From the NCBI GenBank assembly GCA_016764785.1, contig JAESRG010000017.1:1-46829 (forward strand): DNA of 46,829 bases. The letters are read 5' to 3'. This document shows, in pieces, positions 11,275-34,070 of the stretch (position 1 is its first letter; each line of letters begins with the position of its first letter). A model generated the notes under the pieces. The model searched no databases, was not told where the DNA came from, and saw nothing but the letters and a program-made list of their open reading frames with translations. The DNA comes from Paracoccaceae bacterium. Lineage in GTDB: Bacteria > Pseudomonadota > Alphaproteobacteria > Rhodobacterales > Rhodobacteraceae. A program made the position numbers and the translations under genes.

Positions 11275-11283
11275 AGCTGATTT

Positions 11284-12780: not shown

Positions 12781-12800
12781 ATCCTATGTCTCCAACACTG

Positions 12801-14141: not shown

Positions 14142-14184
14142 GTCGTATTCTCCCTTGGGTGTGGCCTGAGGCCACCGTCACACT

Positions 14185-15672
14185 TTAGCGTAACTTTCGC
14201 AACTGGTCTTCATAAGCTTTAGAAAATGCTTTTCCGAACAATGCCTGAAAGTCGTCTTCGGCCTCAAGCGCAATTTCGCTATACATTTTCTCGAAAACAT
14301 CCCATTTTTTGGCTTTTTTGCCCCCAAACAGGCCTTTCTTTGATTCAATCCGTTCCGACAAAGCCGCCGGATCAAACTTTTTTAACAGATTTTTAATCGC
14401 GGCCTGCATGCCGGTCATCATCGCGACCTCATGGGCTTTGACATCATCCACCGCTTCTTTGGCCGCACGCGCCGCATCAAGATAGCCGGGCATGTTGGGT
14501 TTTAGCATCGCTTCAACCGCCTGATCGCCACTGATCGAAAATTTGATCGGGTTGTTTCCGTCAGGCGAAATCATCGTCTGGCCCAGCCGAAACTCCGATT
14601 TGATTGACGCGCGCGTCATCAACACTTCACGCAACCCCTCAACCAATATTCGATAAGCGGCTCCCGAGCGCTCCATGGCAGAAACGAGATCATCGTCAGG
14701 AATATCCACGTCACTTGCGTCAGCAGCCGCAAGAAAAGCCCGTGCAGCATCACCGGAAACCGGACCTGACGGTGCAATTTTCTGCGGTTCCGCTGCCAGC
14801 GGTTCGGTGATTTTACTTACGGGGGACGGTTCCACAGGAACTTTGGCCGCAACGGCTTCGGAAGCAGGCTCGGGCGGGATGGAGCGTTCAACGTCGGCAA
14901 CAGGCGGCGGAGCAACAGGGGCTGACAGATCCTCATCCATATCCCAGTCATCGGGAATCATATTGTCGCCACCGCCACCACCAGAGGTGAACGTCGGTCC
15001 TGACGGGATTAATTCCGGCGCTGAAAAGAAATCGTTTGAGGAGGACGCATGGTTTTGCCCACTAACGGGTTCACCGTCAAAAATATCCTCTTTAGGGCCA
15101 CCGAACATGTCTTCGTCATCCGGAATCAGCGGCGCCGGATCAGGAGCAGGCGCCCCAAGCGCGCTTGCATCTGGCCCTTGCGCCGGACCAGACCCCAGCA
15201 AATCGTTCAGATAATCCCCACCGCCACCGCCCTGAGAAGGGTCATCCAAGCCGCCAACAAAACCATCCGCTGGCGCAGGGGCCATTGGCATCAATGGCTC
15301 ACTAGCCATCGGCGCGGCCAGATTCGCATAAGGATCAACCGGCGGTGCACCCAACCCAGCTGTGATTTCGATCCGCAATTCAAACGGCCCGACCATCAAG
15401 GTATCACCGTGGTTAAGTGGCGTTGGCGTCGGCCCAAGCGGCTGGCCATTGTAATTTAGAAACGTGCCGTTGGTTGAGATATCCAACACCACAAAATCAT
15501 TGCCGCGCTCTTCGATCACGCAATGACGCGATGAAATACCGCGATCTGGGTCAGGTAGGATTAAATCATTGCCGTCGGCACGACCAATGGTCAGCGCACC
15601 GTCATTCAAAACAGTACTACCAGCCCCGCCGGGCACAGCGCCCGACCCCTGAATGTGCAAGGTTAAACCCAT
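14185..15672 (-). CDS. tagH: T6SS-associated FHA domain protein (TagH/Fha)
   Basis: N-terminal FHA 'LTIGRADGNDLILPDPDRGISSRHCVI...TNGTFLNYNG', low-complexity linker, C-terminal 'KFDPAALSERIESKKGLFGGKKAKKWDVFEKMYSEI'. Confidence 0.93.
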   Translation of the reverse strand: MGLTLHIQGSGAVPGGAGSTVLNDGALTIGRADGNDLILPDPDRGISSRHCVIEERGNDFVVLDISTNGTFLNYNGQPLGPTPTPLNHGDTLMVGPFELRIEITAGLGAPPVDPYANLAAPMASEPLMPMAPAPADGFVGGLDDPSQGGGGGDYLNDLLGSGPAQGPDASALGAPAPDPAPLIPDDEDMFGGPKEDIFDGEPVSGQNHASSSNDFFSAPELIPSGPTFTSGGGGGDNMIPDDWDMDEDLSAPVAPPPVADVERSIPPEPASEAVAAKVPVEPSPVSKITEPLAAEPQKIAPSGPVSGDAARAFLAAADASDVDIPDDDLVSAMERSGAAYRILVEGLREVLMTRASIKSEFRLGQTMISPDGNNPIKFSISGDQAVEAMLKPNMPGYLDAARAAKEAVDDVKAHEVAMMTGMQAAIKNLLKKFDPAALSERIESKKGLFGGKKAKKWDVFEKMYSEIALEAEDDFQALFGKAFSKAYEDQLRKLR

Positions 15673-15681: not shown

Positions 15682-15981
15682 TTAACCCCCGATCATGACC
15701 TGCGGGAATCCTACGGTAATGGTGCCGCCATGTGCGCAACTGTCACCCATGCGCGCCGCAGGCATATTACTAATCATCACCGAGCTGGATCCTTTAACAA
15801 CCGAGTCAGGCGGCCCGACACAAACGGCCGCATTCCCCATGGTTGCCGCAGGCAGGCACCCGATCAGAACTGTCGGTTTTCCGGGGGGAAGCAACGGCCC
15901 GCCAACATGTGGAATCGGTGGCGTCCCCGGTGTTACCATCGGGCAAACATGCATATCACCTATTCGCGCTGCTGGGGGCAT
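15682..15981 (-). CDS. PAAR domain spike-tip protein
   Basis: 99 aa; MPPAARIGDMHVCPMVTPGTPPIPHVGGPLLPPGKPTVLIGCLPAATMGNAAVCVG...AARMGDSCAHGGTIT. Confidence 0.92.
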   Translation of the reverse strand: MPPAARIGDMHVCPMVTPGTPPIPHVGGPLLPPGKPTVLIGCLPAATMGNAAVCVGPPDSVVKGSSSVMISNMPAARMGDSCAHGGTITVGFPQVMIGG

Positions 15982-16665: not shown

Positions 16666-18771
16666 CTAGTTTATCTTGACCAGAGAACCCTTAACCGTAA
16701 GGATTCCGCCAGATTTAAGTGTCGCCATACCGCCAGCCTCGAATGTCGCCATACCGGAACTTTTAACTGTCATTGCACCGCTAGATTCTAACTTGGCTGA
16801 GCCGCCCGCCTTGGCTGCGAATGTGCCCGACGCCTCGATTTTGACACTACCGGTTTTGATTTTGATCTCGCTAGAAGTGATTTCGATCGAGGAACTACCA
16901 ACCGTTAAGGTGATTTTGGTGCCGGCAGTAATATCCAGCGTATCTCCAACATCAATCGTATAGTTCGTGGTAATAGTATCGGTTTTATTAGCGCCGATCT
17001 TAACAGTTTCGTCTTCCCCAACCGAGCGATCTCGCGTTTTCGCAATCGACAGGGTTTCCTTACCTTCTTTGACCGTAAAAGTATGGTCGCCTTTTTCCAG
17101 CTCTTCGGTTTTATGGTTATATACTTTTTGCGTCAGATCGCCTGGGTCCTTTTTCTCAAACCCGATCGAAATATCTGCGTTGTTTTTAATGATTTCCTTA
17201 TAGTCTTTTTCCGATTGCAGCCGGATGAATTCTTCGTCCTTTTTGTCTTCAAATACCAGTTCATGAAAACCACCTCCACCTTTGGTAGAGTTACTTTTCA
17301 ACCCATGTTGCGTCATATTAGCGGGAAAGGCGAACGGAGGCTTCTTAGCATCGTTATACAACATTCCCGTGACAATCGGCCGATCGGGGTTGCCTTCTTC
17401 AAACTGAACAACAACCTCCTGCCCGATACGCGGAATGTGAAATTGCCCCCATCCCTGCCCGGTCATCGTGTGGCTAACTCGAATAAAGCATGTGGTTTTT
17501 TCGTCTTTCTTACCGTCGCGGTCCCAATGGAACTGAACTTTGATACGTCCATATTCGTCCGTATAAATTTCATCGCCGCTTGGGCCGGTAACAATGGCCG
17601 TTTGCAGGCCCGGAATGATCGGCTTTGGCGTCCCTAGCGATGCGCGAAATGGCTCTGACTTCAGCTGAACCGAAAATTCGGCTTCGTAACTTTCTTTTTT
17701 ATCTGAATCAATATTATTGCGATTGTCGTCGCTGTTCGGATTTTCGGTTACGTTGTCTTTGTCTTCATCGGTTTCGATTTGCAGATTATGTTTAACGGTC
17801 AGAACCAAATATTCATTATTCAGATCTGAACGCGGGTGTTCTTTCAACTTAAATGTCCCGCCTGCCGCCATATTGCGCACATTACACTTGCCCCAGGTCC
17901 GCTTGTGGGCAGCGGCTAATGCTTCGGCAATGACACGGGTACGGGTTTTACCGTCATCTGCCAGCACATGAATACCGGGATAATCGTAAATCTCGATATC
18001 TTTGTGACTATGTTTACCTTTTGGAATGGCCGTCACAGCTTTCAGATCAGTGGTTGATTTGGTAAAGTCATAATCAGTCAGGGTAACCTTGCCAGAATTG
18101 ACCCGCTCGCTGGATTTCCACTCATAGATGTGATCCATCTCGCGTTTGTATTCTTTTTCACGAAAGTGGAATTCGATATTCGCGGCGTTTTTCAACCCAG
18201 AATGCGACCCTGATCCATCAGCGATCACCAATGTTTCCTTGGATGTATCGTGGGTAAAGTAAAAATACATCCCTTCTTCTTCCATCAACCGACAGACAAA
18301 TTCATAATCGGTCTCACGGTATTGAACCAGATAATCCCGTTTTTTATAGCTCTCGGATGTCTTGTCCTGAAAATCAGAAAATCCGCGTTCCGAGAAAATA
18401 TCCTTGATCACCTCTAGCGCAGATTTTTCCTGAAAAATCTTGCAATCGGCGTGCAGGGTTAAGAACCAAAACCACGGTCGCACTTCGGCGCGGTACAATG
18501 CCTGAGAGCCAAATTTGCCCTCATAAGCACAGGAAATACAATGCCCGTGCCAGCTGCGCATTTTTTCTTTTTCGTCTTCGACCTCCAACGTCATTTTCTG
18601 GCCGACAATGTCTTCCAGTTTCAAATCGTGGTCCGGGGAAACAAATTGAATATCGGTTTCGGTCAGCATTGAAAGGCCTTCAAAGACCTCCGCGCGGACC
18701 AGTATCATTTTCTTGGGGTCAAGCGGACCTTTTAACTTTAACTTTCTGTTCTCTTGAACGGCGTCTGCCAT
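16666..18771 (-). CDS. vgrG: T6SS spike protein VgrG (TssI)
   Basis: 701 aa; YRETDYEFVCRLMEEEGMYFYFTHD, PGLQTAIVTGPSGDEIYTDEYGRIKVQFHWDRDGK, C-terminal beta-helix repeats. Confidence 0.96.
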   Translation of the reverse strand: MADAVQENRKLKLKGPLDPKKMILVRAEVFEGLSMLTETDIQFVSPDHDLKLEDIVGQKMTLEVEDEKEKMRSWHGHCISCAYEGKFGSQALYRAEVRPWFWFLTLHADCKIFQEKSALEVIKDIFSERGFSDFQDKTSESYKKRDYLVQYRETDYEFVCRLMEEEGMYFYFTHDTSKETLVIADGSGSHSGLKNAANIEFHFREKEYKREMDHIYEWKSSERVNSGKVTLTDYDFTKSTTDLKAVTAIPKGKHSHKDIEIYDYPGIHVLADDGKTRTRVIAEALAAAHKRTWGKCNVRNMAAGGTFKLKEHPRSDLNNEYLVLTVKHNLQIETDEDKDNVTENPNSDDNRNNIDSDKKESYEAEFSVQLKSEPFRASLGTPKPIIPGLQTAIVTGPSGDEIYTDEYGRIKVQFHWDRDGKKDEKTTCFIRVSHTMTGQGWGQFHIPRIGQEVVVQFEEGNPDRPIVTGMLYNDAKKPPFAFPANMTQHGLKSNSTKGGGGFHELVFEDKKDEEFIRLQSEKDYKEIIKNNADISIGFEKKDPGDLTQKVYNHKTEELEKGDHTFTVKEGKETLSIAKTRDRSVGEDETVKIGANKTDTITTNYTIDVGDTLDITAGTKITLTVGSSSIEITSSEIKIKTGSVKIEASGTFAAKAGGSAKLESSGAMTVKSSGMATFEAGGMATLKSGGILTVKGSLVKIN

Positions 18772-18808: not shown

Positions 18809-19072
18809 TCATTTCTGTTCTTCTATAATGTCGTTGTGCCGGCGAAGCCGACTGATAATGCCGGGGTGAATTCCCCAAAGACTTCCAGTAAAAATATCGT
18901 CTGGCAGGTCCAATTGTAGTTCATATCCCGAAGGGTATGTGATCACTTTTACCGGCTTTGGATAATATCCCTCGTCCGATAGTATAGCACTTAGATAGTC
19001 TTCTCCTTTCAAAAGCCAATAGCTTTCCTCATGGCCAATTAAAATAATTGCGAATTCTACGGTTTCAGTCAT
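18809..19072 (-). CDS. Hypothetical protein (87 aa), unknown function
   Basis: ORF between vgrG and the TssB-TssC fusion in the same direction; MTETVEFAIILIGHEESYWLLKGEDYLSAILSDEGYYPKPVKVITYPSGYELQLDLPDDIF... Confidence 0.7.
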   Translation of the reverse strand: MTETVEFAIILIGHEESYWLLKGEDYLSAILSDEGYYPKPVKVITYPSGYELQLDLPDDIFTGSLWGIHPGIISRLRRHNDIIEEQK

Positions 19073-22000
19073 TACAGATCACCCAAAAGTGCGGCAAGAT
19101 CATCATCCATGTCGTCGTCACCGCCAAGATCAAGATCATCATCATCGCCAAAACCCGACAATAAATCGTCAAGATCATCATCGCCGCCCAAATCAAGATC
19201 CAAATCACCACCGAGATCCAGATCAAAATCGTCATCACCACCGAGATCCATATCCAGATCATCCCCGAGCCCTAAATCATCGCCATCATCACCACCAGCC
19301 GCAGGTGCCGCCGTCGCCGGAGCCGCCTTTTTGGCGCCCGAGGCAAAACCAACCGACGTTTGCATCCGCACCGTGCCCGATGACAATTGTTTGGCCCCGT
19401 CGCCCGACCAGATGCCCAGCAGTTCGCCACCGCCAACCGCCTGAAAAGACCCCAGCTTGACCATATTCTGCCCTTGAACCGAGATCACCGGCATATAGCC
19501 GCGCGCAATTACGTCAGCGCTGGTACGCACATTCAGCAGACGTTCGGTGCATGGCAGCGCCACCTGGTCGCCGTATTGGTCGGTCATATAGTGGAACGGC
19601 ATGTCGTCCAGCGACATGATCGACCCAAGGCTCATATCCTTGCCCTGTTGCGCCAGCGTTTCGCCCAACAGCACCGCCACCAGCACCGCAGGGTTGGCAA
19701 ACAACATGGATCGCATACCCTCTTTGACATTAAATTCCTCATAGCCAAACCGGTCAACAGGCTCGGTTTTCTTGCCATATGGCATCCGCAGCAAGAAACG
19801 CGGCGTGGCAAGGCCAAGGTATTTAGCCTCAGGCATTTCTTGCAACGCAGCCCATGTATCTTGCACAAGTTTGTGACGATCCTCGGGTTTTACCCCCATG
19901 AACGTTGTCGACATAGCTGACACAAACGGGGCGTCCATATTGGCGCAAATCCGCGCCATCCGCGCCAAAATTTCGGCGTGCGGCGGGGTTTCTTCCCACG
20001 TATATAAGCCAAATACCGCGGCAAATGGCCCCGCGCTATCGTCAAGACGCGGTTTTTCCACCAGCATTTCATACAGGCCAGTTTCGGCCATATCCTCAAC
20101 GCCCGCCAAATCAGCGGCAAATTCTTCCACCGACATGTCATAGACCACAACTTCCAGCGTCGCGCTGGCCTCAATGCGGCGGCCCAGCAATTCAATGGCC
20201 CGCCAGCCAGCCTCAACCGTCTGAAAATCGGGGTGATGCAATACGCTGCTCATCGCCGTCGATAGCGCCGCGTCGACGGCAGCGATCATTTCCTCAGAAC
20301 CGCTGTCTTTGGCAGCCACAATATGAGGGCCAACAATGCGGCTAATCAGATCGCTGGCGGTGCTGGCCTCAAGCGTTGGGGTGCTGTCACCAATCAGATT
20401 CTGAAAATCCGTAAGCCGCAGATCAGCAGGCGCTGCGCTGCCTTTGGCACGCTTGGTGCTTGTGGCGCGAAAATCGCCGAATTCAGCGCCCCAACCCTGC
20501 ATTTTAGCAATTGCGGCATCCAGATTTCGACCTGACACCAGATCGCGCCGCAACATGTTCAGCTCGTTGAACATTTCGACATTCTCGAACAGCTCGTCGG
20601 GGTGCAGGTCATCTAGCTCGTTCAGCTCCACCTCAACCGCTGAGCCGTCATTGCCCAACGGCAGGGTCAGCGTGGTGCGGAACCGCATAATGACATCTTC
20701 CATGGTGTCAAAATCGAGCTTGAACCCTTTACGTTTGCCCAACGCCGCGCCAGTTTCAAGATTGCCTTTGTTGCCCCGTCCCGAAAAATCGCCCAGCACA
20801 GCAATGCGGAATTTACGCCGTGACCCGGCCTCATCCTGTTGTTTTGGTGCTGACATACTGCCAAAATCTGGCTGGAATGCAGGTTTTTTTGGTTTTTCCA
20901 CGGGGGTTTCCTCCGGTTCGCTGGTGTCATCGTCGCCAAGCAAGTCATCAAGATCAAGATCGTCATCATCCGAACCGGATAGCAACGCATCAAGATCGTC
21001 ATCATCATCGTCATCGCCAAGCAACGCGCTTAGATCATCATCGTCGTCGTCATCGCCACCCAGCAAGTCGGCGAGGTCATCGTCGTCATCACTGTCAGAA
21101 AGCAGGTCACCAAAATCATCGTCACTGTCCGCAAGCATTGCATCGAGGTCAATGTCTTCGATTTCGTCAGCCGAATCGTCGTCGGCAAGTGACGCATCAA
21201 GCTCATCTGTATCGTCGTCGGCTGCGTCGGCCAAATCCACACCGACATCATCCAACAAAGCCGCCAGATCATCGGCAGAGACATCAACCGTTTCGGCCGT
21301 TTCAGAAACCGCATCCAGATCAAGCCCCAGATCCCCAAGGAGGTCCTCCATGCTTTCTTCTTTGGTGTCTGGAACGTCGGCGGCCAAGCCTGCCAACACA
21401 TCGTTGATCTCTTCATCTTCCGGCTCATCTTCGGGAATATCGGTCGCCATATCAGCCAAAATATCGGCACTGGTTTCCTCAACGGTATCTTCCGGAATAT
21501 CGGCGGCAAGGTCTGCTAAAATGCTATCGCTTTCGTCGTCTTCATTATCTTCGTCAACGTCAAAAGTCAGATCTGCAAGCATGTCATCGTTGGTCTCATC
21601 CTCGTCTTCCACCCCAACCGCGCGCATGGCATCTAATGCCAGATCATCGCTATCGTCTTCAGGGGCGTTATCAGAGACATCCGCTGCCATATCGGCAAGA
21701 ATGTCGACACTTGGATCTTCTTCGTCCATGTCTTCTGGTGCGGATGCCGCCATGTCGGCCAGCAGATCATCATTGCTATCCTCAACGACGTCGTCGACGT
21801 CAATCGAGCGCATCGCGTCTAACGCAAGATCAGCGCTGTCGTCCTTGGCTTCTTCGTCAGGGATCTCGGTTGCGATACCCGAAAGGATATCGGCACTGGC
21901 GTCGATCTCTTCAATCTCGTCGGGTGCCTCCGCTGCAAGGCCCGCTAACAGCGCGTCATTGTTATCGTCAACATCTTCCTCAACGTCAACGGCGCGCATC

Positions 22001-23688
22001 GCGTCCAGCGCAAGTTCTGCGCTGTTATCTTCGGGTGCGTCGTCAGGCACATCTGTTGCCAGATCCGCCAGAATACCGGCGCGCGTATCTGTGTCATCGG
22101 TTTCGTCCGGTGCCGAGGCTGCCATTTCGGCCAATAGATCATCATTATTGTCTTCCGCGATATCCTCAACCTCGACAGCGCGCATGGCGTCCAACGCTGC
22201 GCCAGTGTCATCCGCTTCGGGTTCGTCTTCGATCTCAACCGACATATCCGCCAAAATATCATCACTTGTGTCTTTTTCGTCAACATCGTCCGGCGCGCTT
22301 GCCGCCATTTCGACCAACAAGTCGTCATTGGTTTCTTCAGCCTCGTCTTCAACTTCAACCGAGCGCATGGCATCCAAGGCCAAATCAGCGCTGTTATCTT
22401 CGGGTGCGTCGTCGGGCACATCTGTTGCCATATCAGCCAGAATGTCGGCGCTGGTATCAGCTGCTTCTGTTTCTTCCGGTGCAGATGCAGCCATTTCCGC
22501 CAGCAGATCGTCGTTGCTTTCTTCGATCTCATCCGCGACATCAACCGCCCGCATGGCATCCAGCGCCGCGCCGGTTTCGTCGACCTCGGGTTCATCTTCA
22601 ACCTCGACCGACATGTCAGCTAAGATATCGGCGCTTGTGTCACTTTCCTCAACATCGTCAGGGGCCGAGGCGGCCATTTCGGCCAGCAGATCATCGTTGC
22701 TATCCTCAACCACATCCTCAACCTCGACCGCACGCATGGCGTCCAAGGCTGCGCCAGTGTCATCCGCTTCGGGTTCGTCTTCAACCTCCACCGACATGCC
22801 GGCCAAAATATCAGCGCTCTCGTCAATCTCTTCGATTTCCTCGGGCGCATCCGCAGCCAGTCCAGCAAGGATATCACTGCTGTCGTCTTGTTCCTCAACC
22901 TCGTCAGGCGCACTGGCCGCCATTTCCGCCAACAGGTCGTCGTTGGTTTCTTCAACCTCGTTTTTAACCTCAACCGAGCGCATTGCAGCCAGCGCAAGAG
23001 CTGCACTGTCTTCTTCCGGTTCGTCGTCTGGCGCGTCTGCAGCCATGCCCGCTAAAATCCCGGCGTTTTCATCCACCGGCGCGATGTCGTCCGGCTGGTT
23101 CTTGGCCATGCTGGCCAGAATGTCACCAGTATCGTCTTTTTTCTCAACCACTTCCGGCGCTGCTGCCTTCATCGCATCAAACGCCGCTGCGGTGCTGTCG
23201 CCGCCATCCCCAGCCAAGACCATCGCCTTGAATTTTTCCGGCTCGGCCATCAGTTTTTCGATCAACTCCTCAGCACCAGATTTCCCGTCCATATAGGTTA
23301 ACAGATTGGAAAGCTGAGTGCGGGCCTCCAGCAATTTACGCAAGGGCTCAACCTTGCTGGCAATCGCCGCCGGGGTGAAATCCGACATTTTTTCAAAGGT
23401 CAGATCAACCGACAAATTACCCTCGCCGGTCAGCGTATTGGGCACCGAAAATGCCGCGCGCGGTTTCATCGACTTCATACGACTGTCAAAATTATCGATG
23501 TCGATCTCAAGGAATTTCCGGTCTTTTATGCTGGGCTGTGCCACCTCGGATTTTCCCGAAAGATCCGACATGACCCCCATTACAAATGGCAGCTGGATCT
23601 TTTTCTCGGCGCCATACAGCTCCACGTCATATTCGATCTGAACCCGTGGTGCCCGATTTCGAGCAATGAATTTTTGACTGTTTGACAT
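19072..23688 (-). CDS. Giant TssB-[acidic tandem-repeat linker]-TssC-like fusion with acidic C-terminal tail (contractile sheath domain protein)
   Basis: 1538 aa single ORF. N-terminal ~150 aa nearly identical to the TssB at 35564..36076; ~800-aa D/E-rich repeat linker; ~500-aa TssC-like domain (LLHHPDFQTVEAGWRAI-type, KYLGLATPRFLLRMPYGKKTEPVDRFGYEEF); acidic DDLDL-G tail. Confidence 0.92.
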   Translation of the reverse strand: MSNSQKFIARNRAPRVQIEYDVELYGAEKKIQLPFVMGVMSDLSGKSEVAQPSIKDRKFLEIDIDNFDSRMKSMKPRAAFSVPNTLTGEGNLSVDLTFEKMSDFTPAAIASKVEPLRKLLEARTQLSNLLTYMDGKSGAEELIEKLMAEPEKFKAMVLAGDGGDSTAAAFDAMKAAAPEVVEKKDDTGDILASMAKNQPDDIAPVDENAGILAGMAADAPDDEPEEDSAALALAAMRSVEVKNEVEETNDDLLAEMAASAPDEVEEQDDSSDILAGLAADAPEEIEEIDESADILAGMSVEVEDEPEADDTGAALDAMRAVEVEDVVEDSNDDLLAEMAASAPDDVEESDTSADILADMSVEVEDEPEVDETGAALDAMRAVDVADEIEESNDDLLAEMAASAPEETEAADTSADILADMATDVPDDAPEDNSADLALDAMRSVEVEDEAEETNDDLLVEMAASAPDDVDEKDTSDDILADMSVEIEDEPEADDTGAALDAMRAVEVEDIAEDNNDDLLAEMAASAPDETDDTDTRAGILADLATDVPDDAPEDNSAELALDAMRAVDVEEDVDDNNDALLAGLAAEAPDEIEEIDASADILSGIATEIPDEEAKDDSADLALDAMRSIDVDDVVEDSNDDLLADMAASAPEDMDEEDPSVDILADMAADVSDNAPEDDSDDLALDAMRAVGVEDEDETNDDMLADLTFDVDEDNEDDESDSILADLAADIPEDTVEETSADILADMATDIPEDEPEDEEINDVLAGLAADVPDTKEESMEDLLGDLGLDLDAVSETAETVDVSADDLAALLDDVGVDLADAADDDTDELDASLADDDSADEIEDIDLDAMLADSDDDFGDLLSDSDDDDDLADLLGGDDDDDDDLSALLGDDDDDDDLDALLSGSDDDDLDLDDLLGDDDTSEPEETPVEKPKKPAFQPDFGSMSAPKQQDEAGSRRKFRIAVLGDFSGRGNKGNLETGAALGKRKGFKLDFDTMEDVIMRFRTTLTLPLGNDGSAVEVELNELDDLHPDELFENVEMFNELNMLRRDLVSGRNLDAAIAKMQGWGAEFGDFRATSTKRAKGSAAPADLRLTDFQNLIGDSTPTLEASTASDLISRIVGPHIVAAKDSGSEEMIAAVDAALSTAMSSVLHHPDFQTVEAGWRAIELLGRRIEASATLEVVVYDMSVEEFAADLAGVEDMAETGLYEMLVEKPRLDDSAGPFAAVFGLYTWEETPPHAEILARMARICANMDAPFVSAMSTTFMGVKPEDRHKLVQDTWAALQEMPEAKYLGLATPRFLLRMPYGKKTEPVDRFGYEEFNVKEGMRSMLFANPAVLVAVLLGETLAQQGKDMSLGSIMSLDDMPFHYMTDQYGDQVALPCTERLLNVRTSADVIARGYMPVISVQGQNMVKLGSFQAVGGGELLGIWSGDGAKQLSSGTVRMQTSVGFASGAKKAAPATAAPAAGGDDGDDLGLGDDLDMDLGGDDDFDLDLGGDLDLDLGGDDDLDDLLSGFGDDDDLDLGGDDDMDDDLAALLGDL
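19075..19300 (-). repeat. Short acidic repeats encoding the C-terminal tail (GGDD-DLDL type)
   Basis: DDLGLGDDLDMDLGGDDDFDLDLGGDLDLDLGGDDDLDDLLSGFGDDDDLDLGGDDDMDDDLAALLGDL; direct repeats visible at nucleotide level (accgagatccagatcaaaatcgtcatcacc...). Confidence 0.85.
20826..23196 (-). repeat. Tandem acidic repeats encoding the linker of the TssB-TssC fusion (8 recognisable ~61-62-aa super-repeats followed by a poly-Asp DDLxxLLG-D(n) segment)
   Basis: Super-repeat pattern 'LALDAMRxVEVEDxxExxNDDLLAEMAASAPDxxxxxDxSADILADMxxDVPDxxPEDxxA' seen 8 times by its (A/D)AMR(S/A)(V/I) core. Confidence 0.9.
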
Positions 23689-24519
23689 CTATTTATCCAA
23701 GGCTTTTTCGAGCAAGCCGCGCAGCACCGCCAACTCTTCTTTTGTTTCTTTGTTGGCGGCAATCACGATGTTCAAGATCCGCTCCATCTCTTTGTCCTGT
23801 TCTTCCTCCACAGCCGCCTGCATGGTGTTGACCAAGATACCAATGAACAGGTTCAACACTGCAAAAGATGTCGCAATGATAAAGGGCACAAACATCAGCC
23901 ACGCATAAGGATGCACCTCCATCACCGGGCGCACAATGCCCATTGACCAGCTTTCCAGTGTCATGATCTGGAACAGTGAATACAGGCTTTCGCCGATCGT
24001 ACCAAACCACTGTGGAAAAGTATCACTGTACAGCATCGTGGTCATAACGGCGAAAATGTAATACACAATGCCCAGCAAAATCACCACGGCACCCATGCCT
24101 GGCAAGGCCTCCAGCAAGGCCCGCACGACGGATCGCAACTGCGGCACAATCGACAATATCCGCATCGCGCGGATAACCCGCAGCGCCCGCAGCACCGACA
24201 GATTGGCGCTGGTTGGCAACAGGCCAACGCTCACGACAATCAGGTCAAACAGATTCCATGCCGATTTGAAAAACCGCGGCCCATAGGCGTAAATCTTGAT
24301 GCCCATCTCGGCCACAAACACCGACAAAACCGCGGTATCAAAAACTGCCAGAAATCCACCGATGTGGGCGCTGATCGCTTCTGACGTGCTTAAGCCCAAC
24401 GTGATCGCATTAAAGACGATCAGCGCCAGGATTGAATACCGAATCCGCGGGCTGTCAATAAATTGAGCCAGTTTCCAGCGAACAGTTCCCTCGGCGGCGT
24501 CAGTGTTTTCAGACATCAC
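23689..24519 (-). CDS. Bacterial voltage-gated sodium channel (NaChBac/NavAb-like, BacNav family)
   Basis: 276 aa six-TM channel; S4 'SVLRALRVIRAMRILSIVPQLRSVV'; selectivity filter 'TLESWSMG'; S6 plus C-terminal 'EEEQDKEMERILN...ETKEELAVLRGLLEKAL' coiled coil. Confidence 0.93.
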   Translation of the reverse strand: MMSENTDAAEGTVRWKLAQFIDSPRIRYSILALIVFNAITLGLSTSEAISAHIGGFLAVFDTAVLSVFVAEMGIKIYAYGPRFFKSAWNLFDLIVVSVGLLPTSANLSVLRALRVIRAMRILSIVPQLRSVVRALLEALPGMGAVVILLGIVYYIFAVMTTMLYSDTFPQWFGTIGESLYSLFQIMTLESWSMGIVRPVMEVHPYAWLMFVPFIIATSFAVLNLFIGILVNTMQAAVEEEQDKEMERILNIVIAANKETKEELAVLRGLLEKALDK

Positions 24520-24524: not shown

Positions 24525-25499
24525 CTAACGTTTCTTGGCCAATTGTTCGACCTTTTTGAGCTCCTTTGAGGCCTTTGCCATGGCACCACTCAAAACAGAC
24601 GCAACGGAATCCACATTAGCGGTCGTTTTCGCAACAAGCTCATAAGTGGTTGAACCAACATCCGTTTTCTTGACCTTTGCAAGTGCCGCATCCAGTGCCT
24701 TTTCCATCCGCGAAACCGCAGTCTCCAGATTTTTGAATGGCTTCACAAAGGATTCGGCAGATTTCTTGTAGACCTCTTTGGCAGCATCGGACATGTCCTT
24801 GGACTGGCTTTTTTTCATCGTGACCATCAAGCCTGTAATGGACTTATTCATATTGGCATTTGTTTTCGTCAATGACTCCAGCTTTTTTGAATACTCGGCA
24901 AAAGCTGAGTCGCAAGCTTTTTTCAATTCCTCGGTCGCTTTCGACTTATCAGCGCCGCTTGATTTGACTTCCGACACCTTTAACTTCTTCAAGTTAACGA
25001 AGGTTTTCTCAAAGTCTTTAGAAAATTCCTTGGCAACCGCTGCAATTTTACTGGTTGCATCGCTGCCAAGTCCTTTTTGCGCCTTCTTAATTTCACCAAC
25101 ATCATCGGAGGCACCTGAAGCCATATCTTCTTTGAATTCGGCAAAACTCTGCTGCAATTTTTTTTCGGTACGCTTCAATAAATCCGGGACGATCTTGATA
25201 AAGGCATTGGTCTTTTTTAACTTGTCCTGTCCGTTTTTTGCCTTTTCAATGGGCACATAGTTTTCCCACATCTGGGCCCCTAAAATCGAAAGATCGTAAC
25301 GGAACATGGTTTTTGCGGCGTCTTCAATTTTCTTTTTGTTCCATTTGACAGAGGTCACCGAAAATTTGTCTTTGAACTCATAATTCTTCGGCTTTTTTAG
25401 CCCGATTTCCTTTGTCATCATCGGCGTAAGCTTTTTCTTGCGCATTTCCTGAAATGGGTAAATTACAATTTTAATGTCAAATGTCTGATCGCCAGCCAT
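24525..25499 (-). CDS. Hypothetical Lys-rich, helical/coiled-coil protein (324 aa), T6SS-associated by location
   Basis: MAGDQTFDIKIVIYPFQEMRKKKLTPMMTKEIGLKKPK...; long heptad-like K/A/E-rich stretches; no recognised domain; AGGAG RBS upstream. Confidence 0.8.
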   Translation of the reverse strand: MAGDQTFDIKIVIYPFQEMRKKKLTPMMTKEIGLKKPKNYEFKDKFSVTSVKWNKKKIEDAAKTMFRYDLSILGAQMWENYVPIEKAKNGQDKLKKTNAFIKIVPDLLKRTEKKLQQSFAEFKEDMASGASDDVGEIKKAQKGLGSDATSKIAAVAKEFSKDFEKTFVNLKKLKVSEVKSSGADKSKATEELKKACDSAFAEYSKKLESLTKTNANMNKSITGLMVTMKKSQSKDMSDAAKEVYKKSAESFVKPFKNLETAVSRMEKALDAALAKVKKTDVGSTTYELVAKTTANVDSVASVLSGAMAKASKELKKVEQLAKKR

Positions 25500-25549: not shown

Positions 25550-26362
25550 TTAGCGCGGTGCTTTTTCGCGCAAATCGTTCAAAAACCTCTCGCAAATCTG
25601 GATAAGCCGTTCTGCTTTTGCGGTCTGGCCCAGAATTTGTCTGTCGTCCCAGTCTTCCCCGCAAACTGCCTCTTTGGTGCCACCAGCTTGCCAAGGTGTC
25701 ATCTTGTCAGCAATAAATCTGGGGTCGATCATCAAATCAGGTGGAATCAATCCTTTTTTCTGGGCGATGGCAGCCTGCACCATTTGCACTTGCACTTTGC
25801 GCATGATGTTGTCCGATCCACCAAATATTTCCATAAACTGTTCTGGATTTGGATTGGATTTGATCTTTTTGATACCCGCATAGGCATTCGCTACTGTGGT
25901 CGACAATGATTTATACATCATTTTAGTGACCTTCGCCATGCCGGACAACGTATTGTCCATGGCAATCTTGCGACTGTCTAGAAACTGGTCATACAGCTGA
26001 TCCAAATGGTCCAGCCGGTCCGCCAGGAAATCAAGCGATTTGGTGTAGGTTGTACGCTGGTTGCGATCTGCCTCCTCGTCTTTCATTTTTCCTTTGGCAA
26101 ATTTGATATACGCTTTGACGGTTGAATCCAGTTCACGGCCAAATTTTTCACCTGCGGCAATTAGCTTTGCGCGCTTGCGCAGGTCGTTCTCGGTTTCGAT
26201 CGCAGCGCAATATTTATCAGCCTTTTTGAAACATGCGTCGATGCCTGAATGCCCCAAAGTGCTCGAAACAAAGCCCTTGGGTTTTGGTTTCTTTTCACCG
26301 GTGATCTTATGGAAATCAACTTTTGCTTTTTTCCAGCGTGCGGAAAGTTCTGGTCCTGGCAT
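25550..26362 (-). CDS. Hypothetical Lys-rich helical protein (270 aa), T6SS-associated by location
   Basis: MPGPELSARWKKAKVDFHKITGEKKPKPKGF...; no recognised domain; between clpV and the 324-aa ORF. Confidence 0.8.
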   Translation of the reverse strand: MPGPELSARWKKAKVDFHKITGEKKPKPKGFVSSTLGHSGIDACFKKADKYCAAIETENDLRKRAKLIAAGEKFGRELDSTVKAYIKFAKGKMKDEEADRNQRTTYTKSLDFLADRLDHLDQLYDQFLDSRKIAMDNTLSGMAKVTKMMYKSLSTTVANAYAGIKKIKSNPNPEQFMEIFGGSDNIMRKVQVQMVQAAIAQKKGLIPPDLMIDPRFIADKMTPWQAGGTKEAVCGEDWDDRQILGQTAKAERLIQICERFLNDLREKAPR

Positions 26363-26380: not shown

Positions 26381-29080
26381 CTATTCGAAACTATAAGTAA
26401 ATTCACCGTCTTCAACGCTTACATTCACCGCGTTGACCTCTTTACCCTCCATCATCCGGCGCAAAAATTCGCCCGAGACAGCCGGCAACATGGAATTGGT
26501 CAGAATCGCATCAATCATACGCCCGCCGCTTTCCAGTTCCTGACAACGATCAACAATGGTTTGCACCACCGCATCATCGTAATTGAACGGCACACCGTGG
26601 GTTTCCTGAATGCGTTTCACGATACGGTTCAGTTGCAGCACAGTGATTTTGCCAATCATATCTGGGCTAAGCGGGAAATACGGAATCGTAACGATCCGCC
26701 CCAGCAGCGCCGCCGGGAAAACCTTTAGCAACGGGTCGCGCATGGCTTTGGCAATACCGTCTGGTTCTGGCATCAGGTCAGGATCTGCACACATATCCAT
26801 GATCAGTTCCGACCCAACATTCGAGGTTAGCAAGATTAGCGTGTTTTTGAAATCAATCACGCGGCCTTCGCCGTCTTCCATGACGCCTTTGTCAAACACC
26901 TGAAAGAAAATCTCGTGTACGTCAGGGTGGGCCTTTTCGACCTCGTCCAGCAGCACAACCGAGTACGGTTTACGCCGTACCGCTTCGGTTAACACGCCGC
27001 CTTCGCCATACCCGATATATCCCGGAGGCGCGCCTTTCAGGCTGCTGACTGTGTGCGCTTCTTGATACTCAGACATGTTGATGGTGATGATATTTTGCTC
27101 ACCGCCATACAACGCCTCAGCCAGTGCCAGTGCCGTTTCGGTTTTACCTACTCCGGATGGTCCTGCCAGCATAAATACGCCGATGGGTTTGTTGGGGTTA
27201 TCCAAGCCAGCCCGCGCGGTTTGCACCCGTTTGGCAATCATTTCCATCGCATGATCTTGGCCGATCACCCGTTTGCTTAACTGTTCAGCCAGGTTCAAAA
27301 CCGTCGAAATTTCGTCTTTCATCATTTTGCCAACCGGAATACCGGTCCAGTCGCCAACCACCGAGGCAATCGCCTGTTCGTCCACAATTGGCAAAATCAA
27401 CGCAGATTCGCCTTGCAGCGCCTCAAGTTCAGCCTGTTTACCCTTTAATGTTTCCAGCAGTTCATGACGTTGTTCTTCGGTCAATTCAGCGCCTTTTGGC
27501 GCTTCTTCAGCCTCGTCAGTATCAACTTCGCCCCCCTCGGCACGTAGTTTTGAGCGCAGATCAAGGATTTCATCAACAACCGTTTTTTCGGCTTTCCAAC
27601 GTGCGGTCAGGCCATCGAGTTGCACTTTAGCCTCGGCCATTTCGCCCTCAACCCGAGTGCGGCGTTCAGCACCATCATAACCCGCGGTTTCATCGCGCCC
27701 AATGATACCCAGTTCAGTTTTCAATGCCGCAATCCGACGTTGGCAGTCGTCCACCTCAGCCGGAACAGCGTGTTGGCTAATCGCCACCCGCGCACAGGCG
27801 GTATCAATCAGGCTGACCGATTTATCCGGTAATTGTCGCGCCGGAATGTACCGAGCTGACAGGCGCACCGCCGCCTCGATGCCCTCGTCCAGCACTTGCA
27901 CTTTGTGGTGTTTTTCCAACATGCCGGTAATACCGCGCATCATCAAAATAGCTTTTTTCTCGTCGGGTTCGTCCACCACGATACGTTGAAAACGTCGCGA
28001 CAGGGCTGCGTCTTTCTCAATATATTTCTTATATTCGGCCCAAGTGGTCGCGCCGATTGTACGCAATGTGCCCCGCGCAAGTGCCGGTTTCATCAGGTTA
28101 GCCGCATCACCAGTGCCCGCTGCGCCGCCTGCCCCCACCAAGGTGTGGGTCTCGTCAATAAACAGAATGATCGGCACTTCAGACGATTGAACTTCTTCAA
28201 TCACCTGTTTTAGCCGGTTTTCAAACTCGCCCTTCATTGATGCGCCCGCTTGCAAAAGTCCCATATCCAGCTCAAGCAATTTTGCACCCTGAAGTGCTGG
28301 CGGAACGTCGCCGCGTGCCAGACGCAAGGCGAATCCCTCAACCACGGCGGTTTTACCGACGCCAGCCTCTCCGGTCAGGATCGGGTTATTTTGCCGACGG
28401 CGCATCAGCACGTCAACGATTTGGCGAATTTCATCATCGCGCCCAACGATCGCGTCGATCTCGCCATTGCGGGCCTTTTCGGTCATGTCGGTGCAATAGG
28501 CCTCCAATGCTTCGCCAGCGCCCATTTGGGCCGGGGCCATAGCATCAGATGCTTCGCCCGGAACCGCGCCGCCGCCAACACCGTCTTGCGGGGCAAGCCC
28601 GTCTTCGGGCGAACCACTGCAAATATCATAAAGATCATCGGCCAACTCATCGGCTTTGATCTTGCGGAATTCAGTTGAAATGCCGGTCAAAACATGAACC
28701 AGGCTCTTGGTTTTCACCATGCCCAATATCAGATGTCCGGTACGAATTTGCGGAGACTTGTGCATCAGCGACGCATAAACCCACGCCCGTTCAACGGTGT
28801 CTTCAAGATGCTGCGATAGGTCGGAAATCGAACTTGCGCCGCGTGGCAACGCGTCCAGCGCGTCAGTGAAATCTTTGGCCACCCGCCCCGCGTCCAGATC
28901 AAAATGTTGAATAATACGGTGGAGGTCACTGTCTTGACCCTGCAAAATCTGGTGCAACCAATGCACGATTTCCACATACGGGTTGCCGCGCATTTTGCAA
29001 AAAACGGTGGCCCCTTCGATGCCCTTGTATCCAAGTTTATTGAGCTTGCCAAATAGGGCTACGCGACTGATCTCACTCAT
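26381..29080 (-). CDS. tssH: T6SS ATPase TssH (ClpV)
   Basis: 899 aa; two Walker A motifs [13 protein letters not shown] and [13 protein letters not shown], ClpV-type architecture. Confidence 0.96.
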
Positions 29081-29111: not shown

Positions 29112-30137
29112 TCAAACACAAATATGTAGGTCGTCCAAATCTTTTTCTTTTGGCGGCTCGCCCAACCATGTGGTCCACCCAAGTCCTTGAGCCTTTGACA
29201 ATGTGGTTTTTTCCGCTTCTCCGGCTTTCAAGACCAAATTAACGTCCCACATCATCGCGTCACCCATATAGTTCCGCACCAGCGCTTTCAGCCGCTCAAG
29301 GCTTTTGCCCCCCGGCAATAATCGCTTATATTCTTTCAAGCTGACCGGCCCGACCCGAAATGTGAATTTCGCCTGCCGCGTCCAGACTTTGGAGCCGATT
29401 GAGCAAGATCGGCCCAGCATTGCCTTTTTGTTCGGATCGCCCAGCTCCCATGTGTCTTTGGGGTCTAGCTCCAGCCATGTGCCCACAAAACTCTCCAGCG
29501 ATACTTCTGCCCCGAAAAATCCTGAAATCAGCGCCAACAGACCTTCCTCGTTCCGGGTTCCGTGGGCCAACCGCCCCGCATAGCGTAGTTTAGCAAGGTC
29601 AGGCATTTCATCGCGATTCGCCATCGCATCACCGTGCAAACCCGCAAGGGCAGCGACTTTCTGACCAAACAGGTCAACCTCGCCACGTCGATCAAACGAC
29701 GATGTCGGCTCGCCCGAGGCATATGCCCGATACATCAGGCTCAACATCCGGTGATGAAACATGTCAGCAAAGGCCGCATAAGTGCCGTCACGATGCGATT
29801 TCAGCCGATTATAGGCATATTCGGTAATATGCAGCGGTAGCGGACCATTTGGCCCAAACAACCCGAAAAACAGTTGCGAAAATTCGCCGGGCTTTCCGGT
29901 GTTTTCATCAGCCGCGGAAAATTTTGTGACCGTGGAGGTCGCAAAAGCCAAATCAACCTGCTGTTTCAGACGAATTGGGTCTTGGCTGGGACGACGCGAT
30001 TTCCCCAACCGCGGATTATCCGGATACGCGGCTTCGATCAAGCGCAAGGCCTGAAATACATGAAATTTTTCGGGATGGTCTAAAAGCGCATCAAAGCGAC
30101 TTAAATGACCCGCCTTGTTCCGCTTGTTGCTGGCCAC
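29112..30137 (-). CDS. tssG: T6SS baseplate subunit TssG
   Basis: 341 aa; FHVFQALRLIEAAYPDNPRLGKSRRPSQDPIRLKQ, FFGLFGPNGPLPLHITEYAYNR. Confidence 0.95.
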   Translation of the reverse strand: MASNKRNKAGHLSRFDALLDHPEKFHVFQALRLIEAAYPDNPRLGKSRRPSQDPIRLKQQVDLAFATSTVTKFSAADENTGKPGEFSQLFFGLFGPNGPLPLHITEYAYNRLKSHRDGTYAAFADMFHHRMLSLMYRAYASGEPTSSFDRRGEVDLFGQKVAALAGLHGDAMANRDEMPDLAKLRYAGRLAHGTRNEEGLLALISGFFGAEVSLESFVGTWLELDPKDTWELGDPNKKAMLGRSCSIGSKVWTRQAKFTFRVGPVSLKEYKRLLPGGKSLERLKALVRNYMGDAMMWDVNLVLKAGEAEKTTLSKAQGLGWTTWLGEPPKEKDLDDLHICV

Positions 30138-31987
30138 CTTGCAATTTCTCCCCTGTCAGGACTGTGAATAACCGTTTCTGTGAAACTATTTACCGAAACA
30201 TACTTTGCAAAAAATCTTTGTAGCACCGCGCCCAAAACATAAACGCCCGTGCCCTCGTAAAAACTTTCGTCGAACTCGACGTTAACTTCCAGCCCACGCA
30301 CCGCCGTAGATAATATCTCGTCAGCCATGCGCCGCACAATTGGCCTGGTCCAGACCTTGGTGATGCCCTCAAGCTGCTTGGCGAGGGTTTTGTCGCCCAG
30401 CGGGCCGTAAATTCCTAACAGTTCCCGCAACGCCGCCGCCGGTTCGCCGCGGTCCGTGTCAGAAATCGACAGGTAATTCAGGCTAAGATGTGAAATCAAC
30501 CGCCACGCGCTGTCACCCTCAATCGCCAGACTGGCCCGCGGCCGCGTGATCGGCGTGAGCGCATTCACAGATTTAACCGGCCCGCCATCGGGAAGGTCAA
30601 AATCAGTATCACCGGTGCCAATCGGCAGCAACATCGGCAGGTCACGGTTAGTGCAAGTTGCCTGCACTGACAGTTGCTCAACATCGCCGCGATAGGGTGC
30701 TTGCACCTGATCCACCAAGTTTACAAACACATCTGCGCCTAAATAGGACGTCCGCGTGCCTTTGATTCGTTGACGTTCCGAGCGTTGATGCATACGTCGA
30801 CGAAGGGAATAATAGGCCGTGTAGGCCTCTCCGGCGGCAGTGAAATCATTCGATGAATAGAACGCCTCAAAATCCACATCATCTTGACCTTCACCACTGA
30901 TACCGCGCACTTTTTTGATCTCGTAAATCTCATAGTCCAGCGGCGCGGTACGGTCAGGCACGATGTGATAATCAACGTCTCGACCCGAGACATGGACGCG
31001 ATCACAGCGTTTTTCAAACAAGTTGATGGCGGGCGAGGCAAACAATTCAAACGCTTCGGGATTAATCACCGGTTTCAGTTCTGGCACTGATTGCGAGAGC
31101 AGAATAAAGATGTCGACTGTCTTTTCGTCGCCTGCCCGCTGAAAAATGGGCTTCAATCCACCAAGTTTGCTAAAGAAAAATCGATTCGGCAGCGCGTAAT
31201 ATTCCTGCAACAGCCGATACCCGTCAAAGCTTTGACCAGGAAACGGCAACAGCGCTTGTTCAGGGTCATAGCCAACTGCCTCAACCGTGTTATAACGGTT
31301 CTCGTAAACCCATGCGGCCCGTCGGTTGGTCGACTTACCGGCAACCGACATGCTGTCATTTACAATATGTTCGTACAGGCGCCACGGCTCCCAGCCGACG
31401 CCAGTCATATACAGGGTCAGGTCTTCAATGGGCAATTTGCTTAGCGGAACCTCGCCCGTCGCCTTGATCCGCAGCCTTATCGCCGCGCGAACCTTACGGT
31501 TTTCACCAACCCCTGCGGCCACGACCTCGCCGCGTCCATCCAGATATTCAGCCTCGACAATCTCAATCGGCCATAACGTTACATCGTGGGCAGTGCGAAA
31601 TCGGCACGACGTCGTATCCCCGTCCCGAAGCGGGCTGCGCAACGGTGTGCCGCGTTTTAACAAAAATCCTTCATCCATACCGCCCTGCGCCGCATCAGGC
31701 ATAAATTGCGCGATAAACATGCTGGGGGTCGGGGCCAAATAGTGCGGATAGATAATTTCCAGCAAATGCTGGGTCAACACCGGATATTGCAGGTCCAGTT
31801 CCAACTGCACCCGCGCCGCCATAAAGGCAAAGCCTTCCATCATCCGTTCAACATATGGGTCTTTGATTTCCACCCCGTCCATGCCGAGCCGAGAGGCAAT
31901 CTTAGGATAGGCTTCTGCAAATTCCTCGCCCATCTCGCGCATAAACGCCAGTTCTTCTTCGTATTTCTTGAGTATGCGCGTGTCCAT
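30101..31987 (-). CDS. tssF: T6SS baseplate subunit TssF
   Basis: 628 aa; YEEELAFMREMGEEFAEAYPKIASRLGMDGVEIKDPYVERMMEGFAFMAARVQLELD. Confidence 0.96.
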   Translation of the reverse strand: MDTRILKKYEEELAFMREMGEEFAEAYPKIASRLGMDGVEIKDPYVERMMEGFAFMAARVQLELDLQYPVLTQHLLEIIYPHYLAPTPSMFIAQFMPDAAQGGMDEGFLLKRGTPLRSPLRDGDTTSCRFRTAHDVTLWPIEIVEAEYLDGRGEVVAAGVGENRKVRAAIRLRIKATGEVPLSKLPIEDLTLYMTGVGWEPWRLYEHIVNDSMSVAGKSTNRRAAWVYENRYNTVEAVGYDPEQALLPFPGQSFDGYRLLQEYYALPNRFFFSKLGGLKPIFQRAGDEKTVDIFILLSQSVPELKPVINPEAFELFASPAINLFEKRCDRVHVSGRDVDYHIVPDRTAPLDYEIYEIKKVRGISGEGQDDVDFEAFYSSNDFTAAGEAYTAYYSLRRRMHQRSERQRIKGTRTSYLGADVFVNLVDQVQAPYRGDVEQLSVQATCTNRDLPMLLPIGTGDTDFDLPDGGPVKSVNALTPITRPRASLAIEGDSAWRLISHLSLNYLSISDTDRGEPAAALRELLGIYGPLGDKTLAKQLEGITKVWTRPIVRRMADEILSTAVRGLEVNVEFDESFYEGTGVYVLGAVLQRFFAKYVSVNSFTETVIHSPDRGEIARWPATSGTRRVI

Positions 31988-31997
31988 TCAGCCGCCC

Positions 31998-32492
31998 CTA
32001 TGCTTTCACGACGGTCATTTCGCCCGATGCTACGCTTAGCTCCGACCGCATGTATATTTCCATAGGCACAGGTTGCGCCCACAGGTCCGCCTGAATATTA
32101 AACACAATTTTTGATCGAGACGTGCCTTCAAGATTGGTCAACTTTACTGACAGGCTACCTGCAACAATTCGGGGTTCAAACGCCGTTATCGCTTTTTCCA
32201 AAAGCCGCTCTAGTTCGTGCGGGCGAGCCTCAGTTGATCGTTTTCCTGAAATATCAACGATTCCGAAATTAATTGTTGATTCCGAGGCATACGGAAATTC
32301 TTCGGGGTCCATGTCAACCGACTGATTGACGGTGTTCAACAGCCAGCCAAGATCACGCAACACAATCTCGCGCAACCGACGCATGTCGATCACCTTTTCA
32401 CGGGCGGTTTCTTTCAATTCAGTTGGTTTATCATCGGTTAACCGATCCAACAGCGATGGTTGCAATCGCTCGGTTATTCCTGGATCAGCCAT
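31998..32492 (-). CDS. tssE: T6SS baseplate subunit TssE (gp25-like)
   Basis: LQPSLLDRLTDD...LREIVLRDLGWLLNT...YASESTINFGIVDISG; internal ATG at 32492 (MADPGITERL) preferred over 32528. Confidence 0.93.
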   Translation of the reverse strand: MADPGITERLQPSLLDRLTDDKPTELKETAREKVIDMRRLREIVLRDLGWLLNTVNQSVDMDPEEFPYASESTINFGIVDISGKRSTEARPHELERLLEKAITAFEPRIVAGSLSVKLTNLEGTSRSKIVFNIQADLWAQPVPMEIYMRSELSVASGEMTVVKA

Positions 32493-33342
32493 TGGTGCTT
32501 TCTGCACTATCTTCATCTTCGTCAACAATAGGGTCGTCGATTTGCATTTCAGTGTCGAAAATAATCTCGCGAATATCCATCAATGGCAAATCGCCCGCAT
32601 CAGTTGCAAATAGCCGCTGCCCGCTGCCAATGAATGTCTCGTCGCCCAGATCATTCCATTCGGTGATTTTTGCCAGCTTGACCTGATCGTTATCCGATGC
32701 CGGTGCGCCGGGATAGCGGGTCGGAATAAACCCGACAACCTCACCACCATTTATCCAAGTGATCTGCACTGGTGTCCACACGTTGTCACGCAGATCCACT
32801 GGTTCTTCCATTTTCAGTTTCTTAATGCTGGAAAACGGTACCCAGTAATAATTACCGTTCACAACCACTTCAAGGATCGGCCCAAGGCGCATGTCCGCGT
32901 CGGCGATCCACTCAAATTTTTCACCATCCGCCGTGCCCGAGGATGTTGGTGCTTTGTCAAAAGCCGCTTCCCGCAACTTGGCGGCGGTGGCGGTATCGCC
33001 ACGGCTCAAGGGCTCCAACGCCTGAATAAGTCCGGCGACCCATGCTTCGGGTTCGCCAAAAATCATTGGGGTTTTTTCGGCAATAAATACTTTTTCCCGT
33101 ACCAACTCACAAATAATCGCCTCACGATAACTTTGCACCATTGGTAGGGTGATCGGGTCCATTTCCCCGATAACTTTCAACTGGGTCACTGCACGCTTCC
33201 ATTCGCCAAGCACACAAAACAATTGAAAGAGGAAAATGCGGTGTTTCGTATTGGACGGGTCTTTGCGCACATTGGCCGTCAACGCGTCCAGCGTTTCTGC
33301 CAAATTGCCTGTTTTAATAATTTCTTCAGCAGACATGCTCAC
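32485..33342 (-). CDS. tagJ: T6SS accessory protein TagJ (ImpE/SciE family)
   Basis: 285 aa; VRKDPSNTKHRIFLFQLFCVLGEWKRAVTQLKVIGEMDP...FEWIADADMRLGPILEVVVNGNYYWVPF. Confidence 0.93.
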   Translation of the reverse strand: MSMSAEEIIKTGNLAETLDALTANVRKDPSNTKHRIFLFQLFCVLGEWKRAVTQLKVIGEMDPITLPMVQSYREAIICELVREKVFIAEKTPMIFGEPEAWVAGLIQALEPLSRGDTATAAKLREAAFDKAPTSSGTADGEKFEWIADADMRLGPILEVVVNGNYYWVPFSSIKKLKMEEPVDLRDNVWTPVQITWINGGEVVGFIPTRYPGAPASDNDQVKLAKITEWNDLGDETFIGSGQRLFATDAGDLPLMDIREIIFDTEMQIDDPIVDEDEDSAESTNG

Positions 33343-33446
33343 CCTTCCCGATTACAAAGAACACGCCCGATACAACGCACCGGGCGGGTTCAATTCTGGA
33401 TCGCGATGCGGCAGGCCAAACGACCAGCCACATCTTAAAAGTCGGA

Positions 33447-33986
33447 TCAAGTAACGGCGTATTGTGCCGTATTTTTGATGCGGCTCCATTCGGCGCTTTT
33501 CTTGTTGGCGCTGTCCATGGACCCGTCTGCTTTTTGTGGAATATATTCGATTTTGGTCGCACCGTACTGGAAGGTAACGCTTTCTTCGCAGATATCGTCA
33601 CCGTCAGAACCGCTCCATTCGATGTCTTGAACCATCAAATGCTTGAAGTAGAACTTCATGAACGTAGAGCCCGACGATTCTGTCGACCCGCCAGAACGGC
33701 GAAGCTCAACGATTGCTTCCTCAAAGTGGCGGCCAACAGTCAGCATCTGAAACAGACCAGGCGAGCCCGCGTCGGTTTTCTTGGTAATGCTGAATTCCTT
33801 GAAGGTCGCTTTACCGGCGCCACCGCCACCGCTTGAAGACCCGATGTTGATGTTGTTTTCTGCGCCAATGGTGAAACTAATCAGTTCAAAGGCTTTTTTG
33901 TCCTTGAATACCTGATCCTGAGTTTCGCCAGGAACTTTTGATTGGTCAGCTGCAGCTGTAAAATAGAAAAATGCATCAAATGCCAT
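33447..33986 (-). CDS. hcp: T6SS tube protein Hcp (TssD)
   Basis: 179 aa; FELISFTIGAENNI...KATFKEFSITKKTDAGSPGLFQMLTVGRHFEEAIVELRR...VTFQYGATKIEY. Confidence 0.95.
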   Translation of the reverse strand: MAFDAFFYFTAAADQSKVPGETQDQVFKDKKAFELISFTIGAENNINIGSSSGGGGAGKATFKEFSITKKTDAGSPGLFQMLTVGRHFEEAIVELRRSGGSTESSGSTFMKFYFKHLMVQDIEWSGSDGDDICEESVTFQYGATKIEYIPQKADGSMDSANKKSAEWSRIKNTAQYAVT

Positions 33987-34070
33987 TATTTCATCTCCTA
34001 ATGATGTTTATGTTGTGGCTCGTATCTGAGTCGTGCCCCGGGGGGTGACCCCCGTTGCGTTATTATACTA

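Follow-up and report, generated by a model that had tools for sequence, protein, structure and literature searches.

The window analysed here (46,829 nucleotides of contig JAESRG010000017.1, from a Paracoccaceae bacterium) carries a T6SS operon that runs unbroken on the minus strand from tssA (37207) down to pppA (6382). The operon begins with tssA, tssB, tssC, hcp, impE/tagJ, tssE, tssF, and tssG (together 29112..37207), then the clpV (tssH) ATPase gene (26381..29080), which is the upstream border of a variable slot, and then unkB, unkA, and the gene for a T6SS-linked voltage-gated sodium channel (BacNav). After the channel come tssCL (19072..23688), a small ORF of 87 aa (18809..19072), vgrG (tssI; 16666..18771), a DUF6931 gene, a PAAR gene (15682..15981), and fha/tagH, tssK, tssL, tssM, tagF, and pppA (6382..15672), all on the minus strand. 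The T6SS core genes tssA-C, E-G, H, I, K-M, and hcp are all in this one operon. The proteins scanned, which covered most but not all of the small ORFs, gave no match to the TssJ family, and tssJ has been reported absent from roseobacter T6SS1 (PMC9515649). The 87 aa ORF has no Pfam family; in many relatives, ORFs of similar size are seen at this place between tssCL and vgrG. Promoter and terminator scans gave sites no commoner than in shuffled DNA. Beside the operon, the region 38245-46071 encodes a weakly TagQ-like lipoprotein (3e-5) and caspase-domain, peptidoglycan-binding, Tll0287-HAMP, Ser/Thr kinase, and OmpA proteins, which may supply this T6SS with its sensing and kinase arm.

The channel gene (23689..24519) is a GTG ORF of 276 aa on the minus strand; the preliminary description had its coordinates correct and left the strand unstated. 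Its second codon is ATG with AGGGGA in front, so the start is probably this ATG, at 24516, which would give a protein of 275 aa. The product matches the Pfam family Ion_trans (E=1.7e-41), and in a PDB search its best solved relatives, aligned over S1-S6, were NavMs (5hvx, 261 bits) and NavAb (about 237 bits). The S4 voltage-sensor helix (LRALRVIRAMRILSIV; 24145..24192, residues 110-125) has the gating arginines R111, R114, R117, and R120, in keeping with the arginine at every third residue that had been described, and the selectivity filter TLESWSM, likewise described, is present at residues 187-193 (23941..23961). The neck and C-terminal helical tail (23692..23832, residues 230-276) include the clade-specific motif NTMQxAVE; a heptad-like pattern in the tail is discernible by eye, and relatives have the tail too. 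A chance origin of the ORF is excluded because of the E-values and the purifying selection reported below. The Ion_trans match, the S4 arginines, the filter, and the NavMs and NavAb relatives all uphold the original identification: judged by its sequence, the gene is a canonical BacNav, and homology makes it very probable that the channel conducts Na+ on depolarisation.

The channel gene starts a few bases past the unkA stop codon, and the tssCL start codon directly follows the channel's stop codon (TAGATG), which confirms the reported placement inside the T6SS operon and next to a sheath-fusion gene. The TssCL of the window is a protein of 1538 aa, with a TssB domain, a polyacidic repeat linker, a second TssB-like domain, a TssC N-terminal domain, and an acidic tail; the TssB family matches in two stretches and VipB at 1133-1417, giving the pair of TssB/VipA domains and the single TssC/VipB N-terminal domain by which the sheath fusion is recognized. 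Its linker is 819 aa long with a net charge of about -269, and the long linkers of relatives consist of repeats over about 270-1050 aa and are in most cases highly acidic, with a net charge down to about -345. TssCL was named in a 2022 squid-symbiont study (PMC9515649), so the sheath fusion itself has already been published; that study counts neighbours without T6SS association as 'other' and never mentions the channel.

Linkage was surveyed in 397 Rhodobacteraceae genomes, drawn evenly with nearly one per genus, using the channel and the TssCL C-module (residues 985-1440; threshold for TssCL, E below 1e-100) as queries and then reading the surrounding DNA. The TssCL module is present in 40 of the 397 genomes, and in 35 of these 40 the channel lies between clpV and tssCL, with the contig in some cases ending inside tssCL. 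Among the 357 genomes without TssCL, a T6SS-linked channel is present in one (G162, locus L132), where it lies between clpV and vgrG. The total is 36 genomes representing 35 genus codes. For the association of TssCL with the channel over the 397 genomes, the Fisher p of 1e-43 is overstated, because the genomes surveyed are related and not independent. The spacing is also tight, the next ORF starting -23 to +1 nt from the channel stop in 36 of 38 loci. The same gene order is seen in the regions from Leisingera methylohalidivorans and Ruegeria conchae, and all 22 Rhodobacteraceae plasmid records with TssCL in PLSDB also hold a BacNav, annotated 'ion transporter'. On one of these 22 plasmids, pW43D of Parasedimentitalea marina (L197, 1578-8057), the channel, tssCL, and vgrG are apparently all shortened or broken, a case of joint decay. 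The preliminary description had named a lack of recurrent linkage as one of two findings that would count against its proposal; the linkage is found in 36 genomes from 35 genera, mostly marine bacteria, and is therefore established as recurrent in the Rhodobacteraceae. Because of this recurrence, a chance insertion of the channel in this one genome is rejected.

Five TssCL operons have no channel (G188, G266, G079, G175, and G321; L127-L131). In four of these, clpV is followed directly by tssCL, and in G175 the slot holds a lysine-rich gene. The channel is therefore accessory rather than core or obligatory, and these five loci, together with L132, indicate that neither the channel nor TssCL strictly needs the other. 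A class-wide search found no T6SS-linked BacNav outside the Rhodobacteraceae; the 29 top loci outside the clade described below have no T6SS genes within about 1.5 kb.

In a maximum-likelihood tree of 110 BacNavs, the 39 T6SS-linked channels form one clade (support 100/100), and none of the 71 others is linked to a T6SS within the flanks available, some of which are short. A general tendency of BacNavs to adjoin T6SS genes is rejected on this basis. Six of the 36 channel genomes were left out of the tree, and their clade membership is assigned by synteny and identity. A second BacNav of the same genome (L002:1435-2238; G000, contig C172), about 54% identical and not T6SS-linked, is located beside a short-chain dehydrogenase-like gene. 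Both this channel and a Leisingera BacNav from elsewhere in its genome (L042) group with the non-T6SS BacNavs; as they fall outside the clade, the T6SS channel is a specialised paralogue and not the housekeeping channel. Distances between the channels track those of the T6SS core proteins (TssF r=0.94, TssC 0.90, ClpV 0.87; Mantel p=0.0005 each), which points to a long common inheritance. The dN/dS between neighbouring clade channels is 0.035-0.093, with some dS near saturation, and the clade is under strong purifying selection. R111, R114, R117, and R120 and the counter-charges E71 (S2 Glu) and D92 (S3 Asp) are invariant in 39 of 39 T6SS-linked channels, as is TLESWSM in all those complete at that site. 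Residues fixed specifically in the clade are located in the S3-S4 region, S4, S5, and the S6 neck (NTMQxAVE); beyond the neck and tail, comparison of conserved positions showed no strongly prominent clade-specific surface.

Between clpV and the channel, the window contains unkB (25550..26362, minus strand; 270 aa), a lysine-rich protein of no known family with a homologue seen only in L008, and unkA (24525..25499, minus strand; 324 aa), a lysine-rich helical protein (19% K, pI 9.7), also of no known family. Directly upstream of the channel, 22 of the 36 channel operons have such lysine-rich genes in this slot, one or two to an operon; the proteins are 270-530 aa long, contain 11-19% lysine, and have a pI of 9.3-9.8. 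Among the operons read, such proteins are encoded in the clpV-tssCL slot at, for example, L004:7791-9989, L143:8232-11345, and L130:10467-11387. They fall in five sequence clusters, none with a Pfam family match, and members of two clusters have a hydrophobic hairpin, which is not found in unkA or unkB. AlphaFold models show two N-terminal strands and then long helices (mean pLDDT 84 for unkA and 73 for the hairpin type); when compared with the PDB, neither of the two models had a match below E 0.001, the best being about 0.02-0.05, to designed bundles. With no Pfam match and no significant PDB match, identity with known alpha-pore-forming toxins (ClyA/Hbl/Xax type) is rejected. A weak PADLOC similarity to LeoB/LeoBC (about 1e-6) may reflect only helices with a hydrophobic hairpin. 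The lysine-rich proteins might act as polymorphic effectors, or they might partner TssCL through their charge.

The polyacidic linker was considered as an obligatory partner of the channel. When 33 linkers are ranked by acidity, those of the three long TssCLs from channel-less operons all fall within the bottom four (Mann-Whitney p=0.0004); however, linker acidity falls with G+C (rho=-0.57), and the core proteins of those channel-less genomes are less acidic as well. In addition, seven channel-positive operons have a short TssCL without a long polyacidic linker, therefore the linker cannot be the general target of the channel. Given these seven operons and the confounding by G+C and general protein acidity, the linker as obligatory partner is rejected.

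The recurrence of the linkage in about 35 genera points to the channel as a functional component of the T6SS machine. From the linkage, the single clade, and the co-divergence, it is very likely a dedicated T6SS accessory gene, and the overall explanation that we marginally favour is an accessory subunit dedicated to one Rhodobacteraceae T6SS lineage. It would be a homotetramer of the inner membrane that passes Na+ when activated by voltage and is produced jointly with the sheath-like fusion TssCL. At normal negative potential it would be shut; local depolarisation, for example by an attacker's pore-forming effector or by an envelope event of the cell's own T6SS, would open it and let Na+ enter, and the cation pulse and voltage change would then act on the T6SS. 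This could happen in the cytoplasm, through a conformational change of the polyacidic TssCL, or by way of a phosphorylation switch of the Fha/PpkA/PppA type. We infer the gating in vivo, the ion carried, and the target alike, and co-transcription and co-inheritance do not prove that channel and T6SS are functionally coupled. Regulation of assembly or firing by the channel, as the preliminary description proposed, in place of a task such as the restoration of ion balance, is a tentative reading that falls a little short of an even chance; it is favoured because a voltage sensor adjoins a sheath-like protein in a system used in combat between neighbouring cells and because depolarising effectors are an obvious trigger. 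T6SS effectors that depolarise their targets include Tse4 (PMC12169545), Tse5 (PMC9637101), and Ssp6 (PMC6889166). Direct action on TssCL is unlikely, as is a counterpart of excitation-contraction coupling, in which depolarisation would lead to sheath assembly or contraction with the polyacidic TssCL as the cation-sensitive coupler.

The main rival to regulation of assembly or firing is a duty in ion balance, in which the channel would repair, or help the cell to tolerate, ionic disturbances that come with an active T6SS or with a hit from another cell, for instance by setting Na+ entry during membrane stress, with no control over the T6SS; co-expression would reflect a need that is present while the T6SS is on. 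The known roles of BacNavs in alkaliphilic Bacillus, Na+ re-entry for pH homeostasis and motility, are of this kind (PMC4225499), the channel is dispensable in five operons, and three of the five channel-less TssCL genomes are absent from the genomes with a BacNav match; as a weak further point, G+C is higher and proteins are less acidic in the channel-less operons, a combination that would suit habitats low in salt. However, the separate housekeeping BacNav could fill a general Na+ role, whereas the T6SS clade is always in the operon and fixed beside tssCL, and ion balance is considered somewhat unlikely. About equally unlikely is a channel that senses attack upstream of the post-translational switch, opening when an incoming effector depolarises the membrane, with the signal relayed by the kinase and phosphatase (PpkA-like/PppA) and Fha, independently of TssCL. 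PppA, TagF, and Fha are encoded in the operon, a Ser/Thr kinase, the Tll0287-HAMP protein, and the TagQ-like lipoprotein close by, and depolarising effectors such as Tse4, Tse5, and Ssp6 exist (PMC12169545, PMC9637101, PMC6889166), but the conserved place of the channel adjoins tssCL and not the kinase genes, and the TagQ similarity is weak (3e-5).

It is improbable that the linkage is a frozen accident, a BacNav inserted once in an ancestral operon and merely inherited without a T6SS role. A single origin and vertical co-inheritance would be expected from an accident too, yet the operon has been reshuffled, with lysine-rich genes coming and going and TssCL losing or gaining its TssB/linker part, and the channel, on which purifying selection is strong, has nevertheless held its position in 35 of the 40 operons. 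Less probable still is an immunity or companion function, in which the lysine-rich proteins would be pore-forming T6SS effectors and the channel would limit self-damage. The lysine-rich gene directly upstream in 22 of the 36 channel operons, the hydrophobic hairpin of several of these proteins, and the long-helix bundles of the AlphaFold models fit with this; 14 of the 36 operons, however, have no such gene, G175 has one without a channel, unkA and unkB have no hairpin, and no solved alpha-pore-forming toxin is matched significantly (best E about 0.02-0.05, to designed bundles). Finally, the channel is very improbable as cargo, that is, as an effector injected into a target membrane. T6SS effectors are usually polymorphic, whereas this is a strongly conserved, slowly evolving, ordinary BacNav, fixed upstream of tssCL and not beside an immunity gene, and no Eag-type (Eag/DUF1795) chaperone family is present among the operon proteins scanned with Pfam. 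In favour of this reading, the gene belongs to the half of the operon that includes vgrG, and effectors that form ion channels do exist (PMC12169545, PMC6889166).

The window channel shares with NavMs (Magnetococcus) and NavAb (Arcobacter) the six-helix subunit, S4 R1-R4, the filter TLESWSM, the S6 neck, and the C-terminal helix, but differs from them in its clade, which is separate, strongly supported, and confined to T6SS operons, and in its clade-specific residues in the S3-S4 region, S4, S5, and the neck. We know of no BacNav in the P. aeruginosa H1-T6SS, which has the same accessories, PppA, TagF, Fha, and ImpE/TagJ. Roseobacter sheath proteins are nearest to those of this system, which is without TssCL (PMC9515649). 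The operon is of the same type as roseobacter T6SS1 of Leisingera and Ruegeria, in which TssCL has two VipA domains and one VipB domain and PAAR, Fha, and impE are found (PMC9515649); the recurrent channel neighbour is what the present analysis adds to that account. NavBp, NaChBac, and NsvBa of alkaliphilic Bacillus are likewise voltage-gated prokaryotic Na+ channels with a known physiological setting, but the role there is in pH homeostasis and motility, with no secretion system (PMC4225499).

No prior report of a T6SS-linked sodium channel was found in the open-access literature. Bacterial sodium channels serve as structural models for human nerve and heart channels. Outside alkaliphilic Bacillus, the physiological role of most of them is, to our knowledge, not known, and we are aware of no clear genomic partner of a BacNav before this one. 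Now that one BacNav clade is linked to a particular machine across 35 genera, the role of bacterial sodium channels becomes testable. If the proposed role is true, the T6SS would be under a form of electrical or ionic control that the open-access literature searched does not describe.

Two further observations concern neighbouring and distant genes. On a plasmid of the betaproteobacterium Eleftheria terrae (L199, 5854-7632), a gene near tssK and vgrG encodes a TssC-like protein that shares 38% identity with the TssCL C-module, with no channel annotated at the locus; this is outside the Alphaproteobacteria, to which TssCL was thought to be confined. Directly downstream of the T6SS operon in the window, the genes at 3684-6335 have KdsA-, KdsB-, and KdsD-type matches (DAHP synthetase I, CTP transferase 3, and SIS-CBS) and are a Kdo sugar set.
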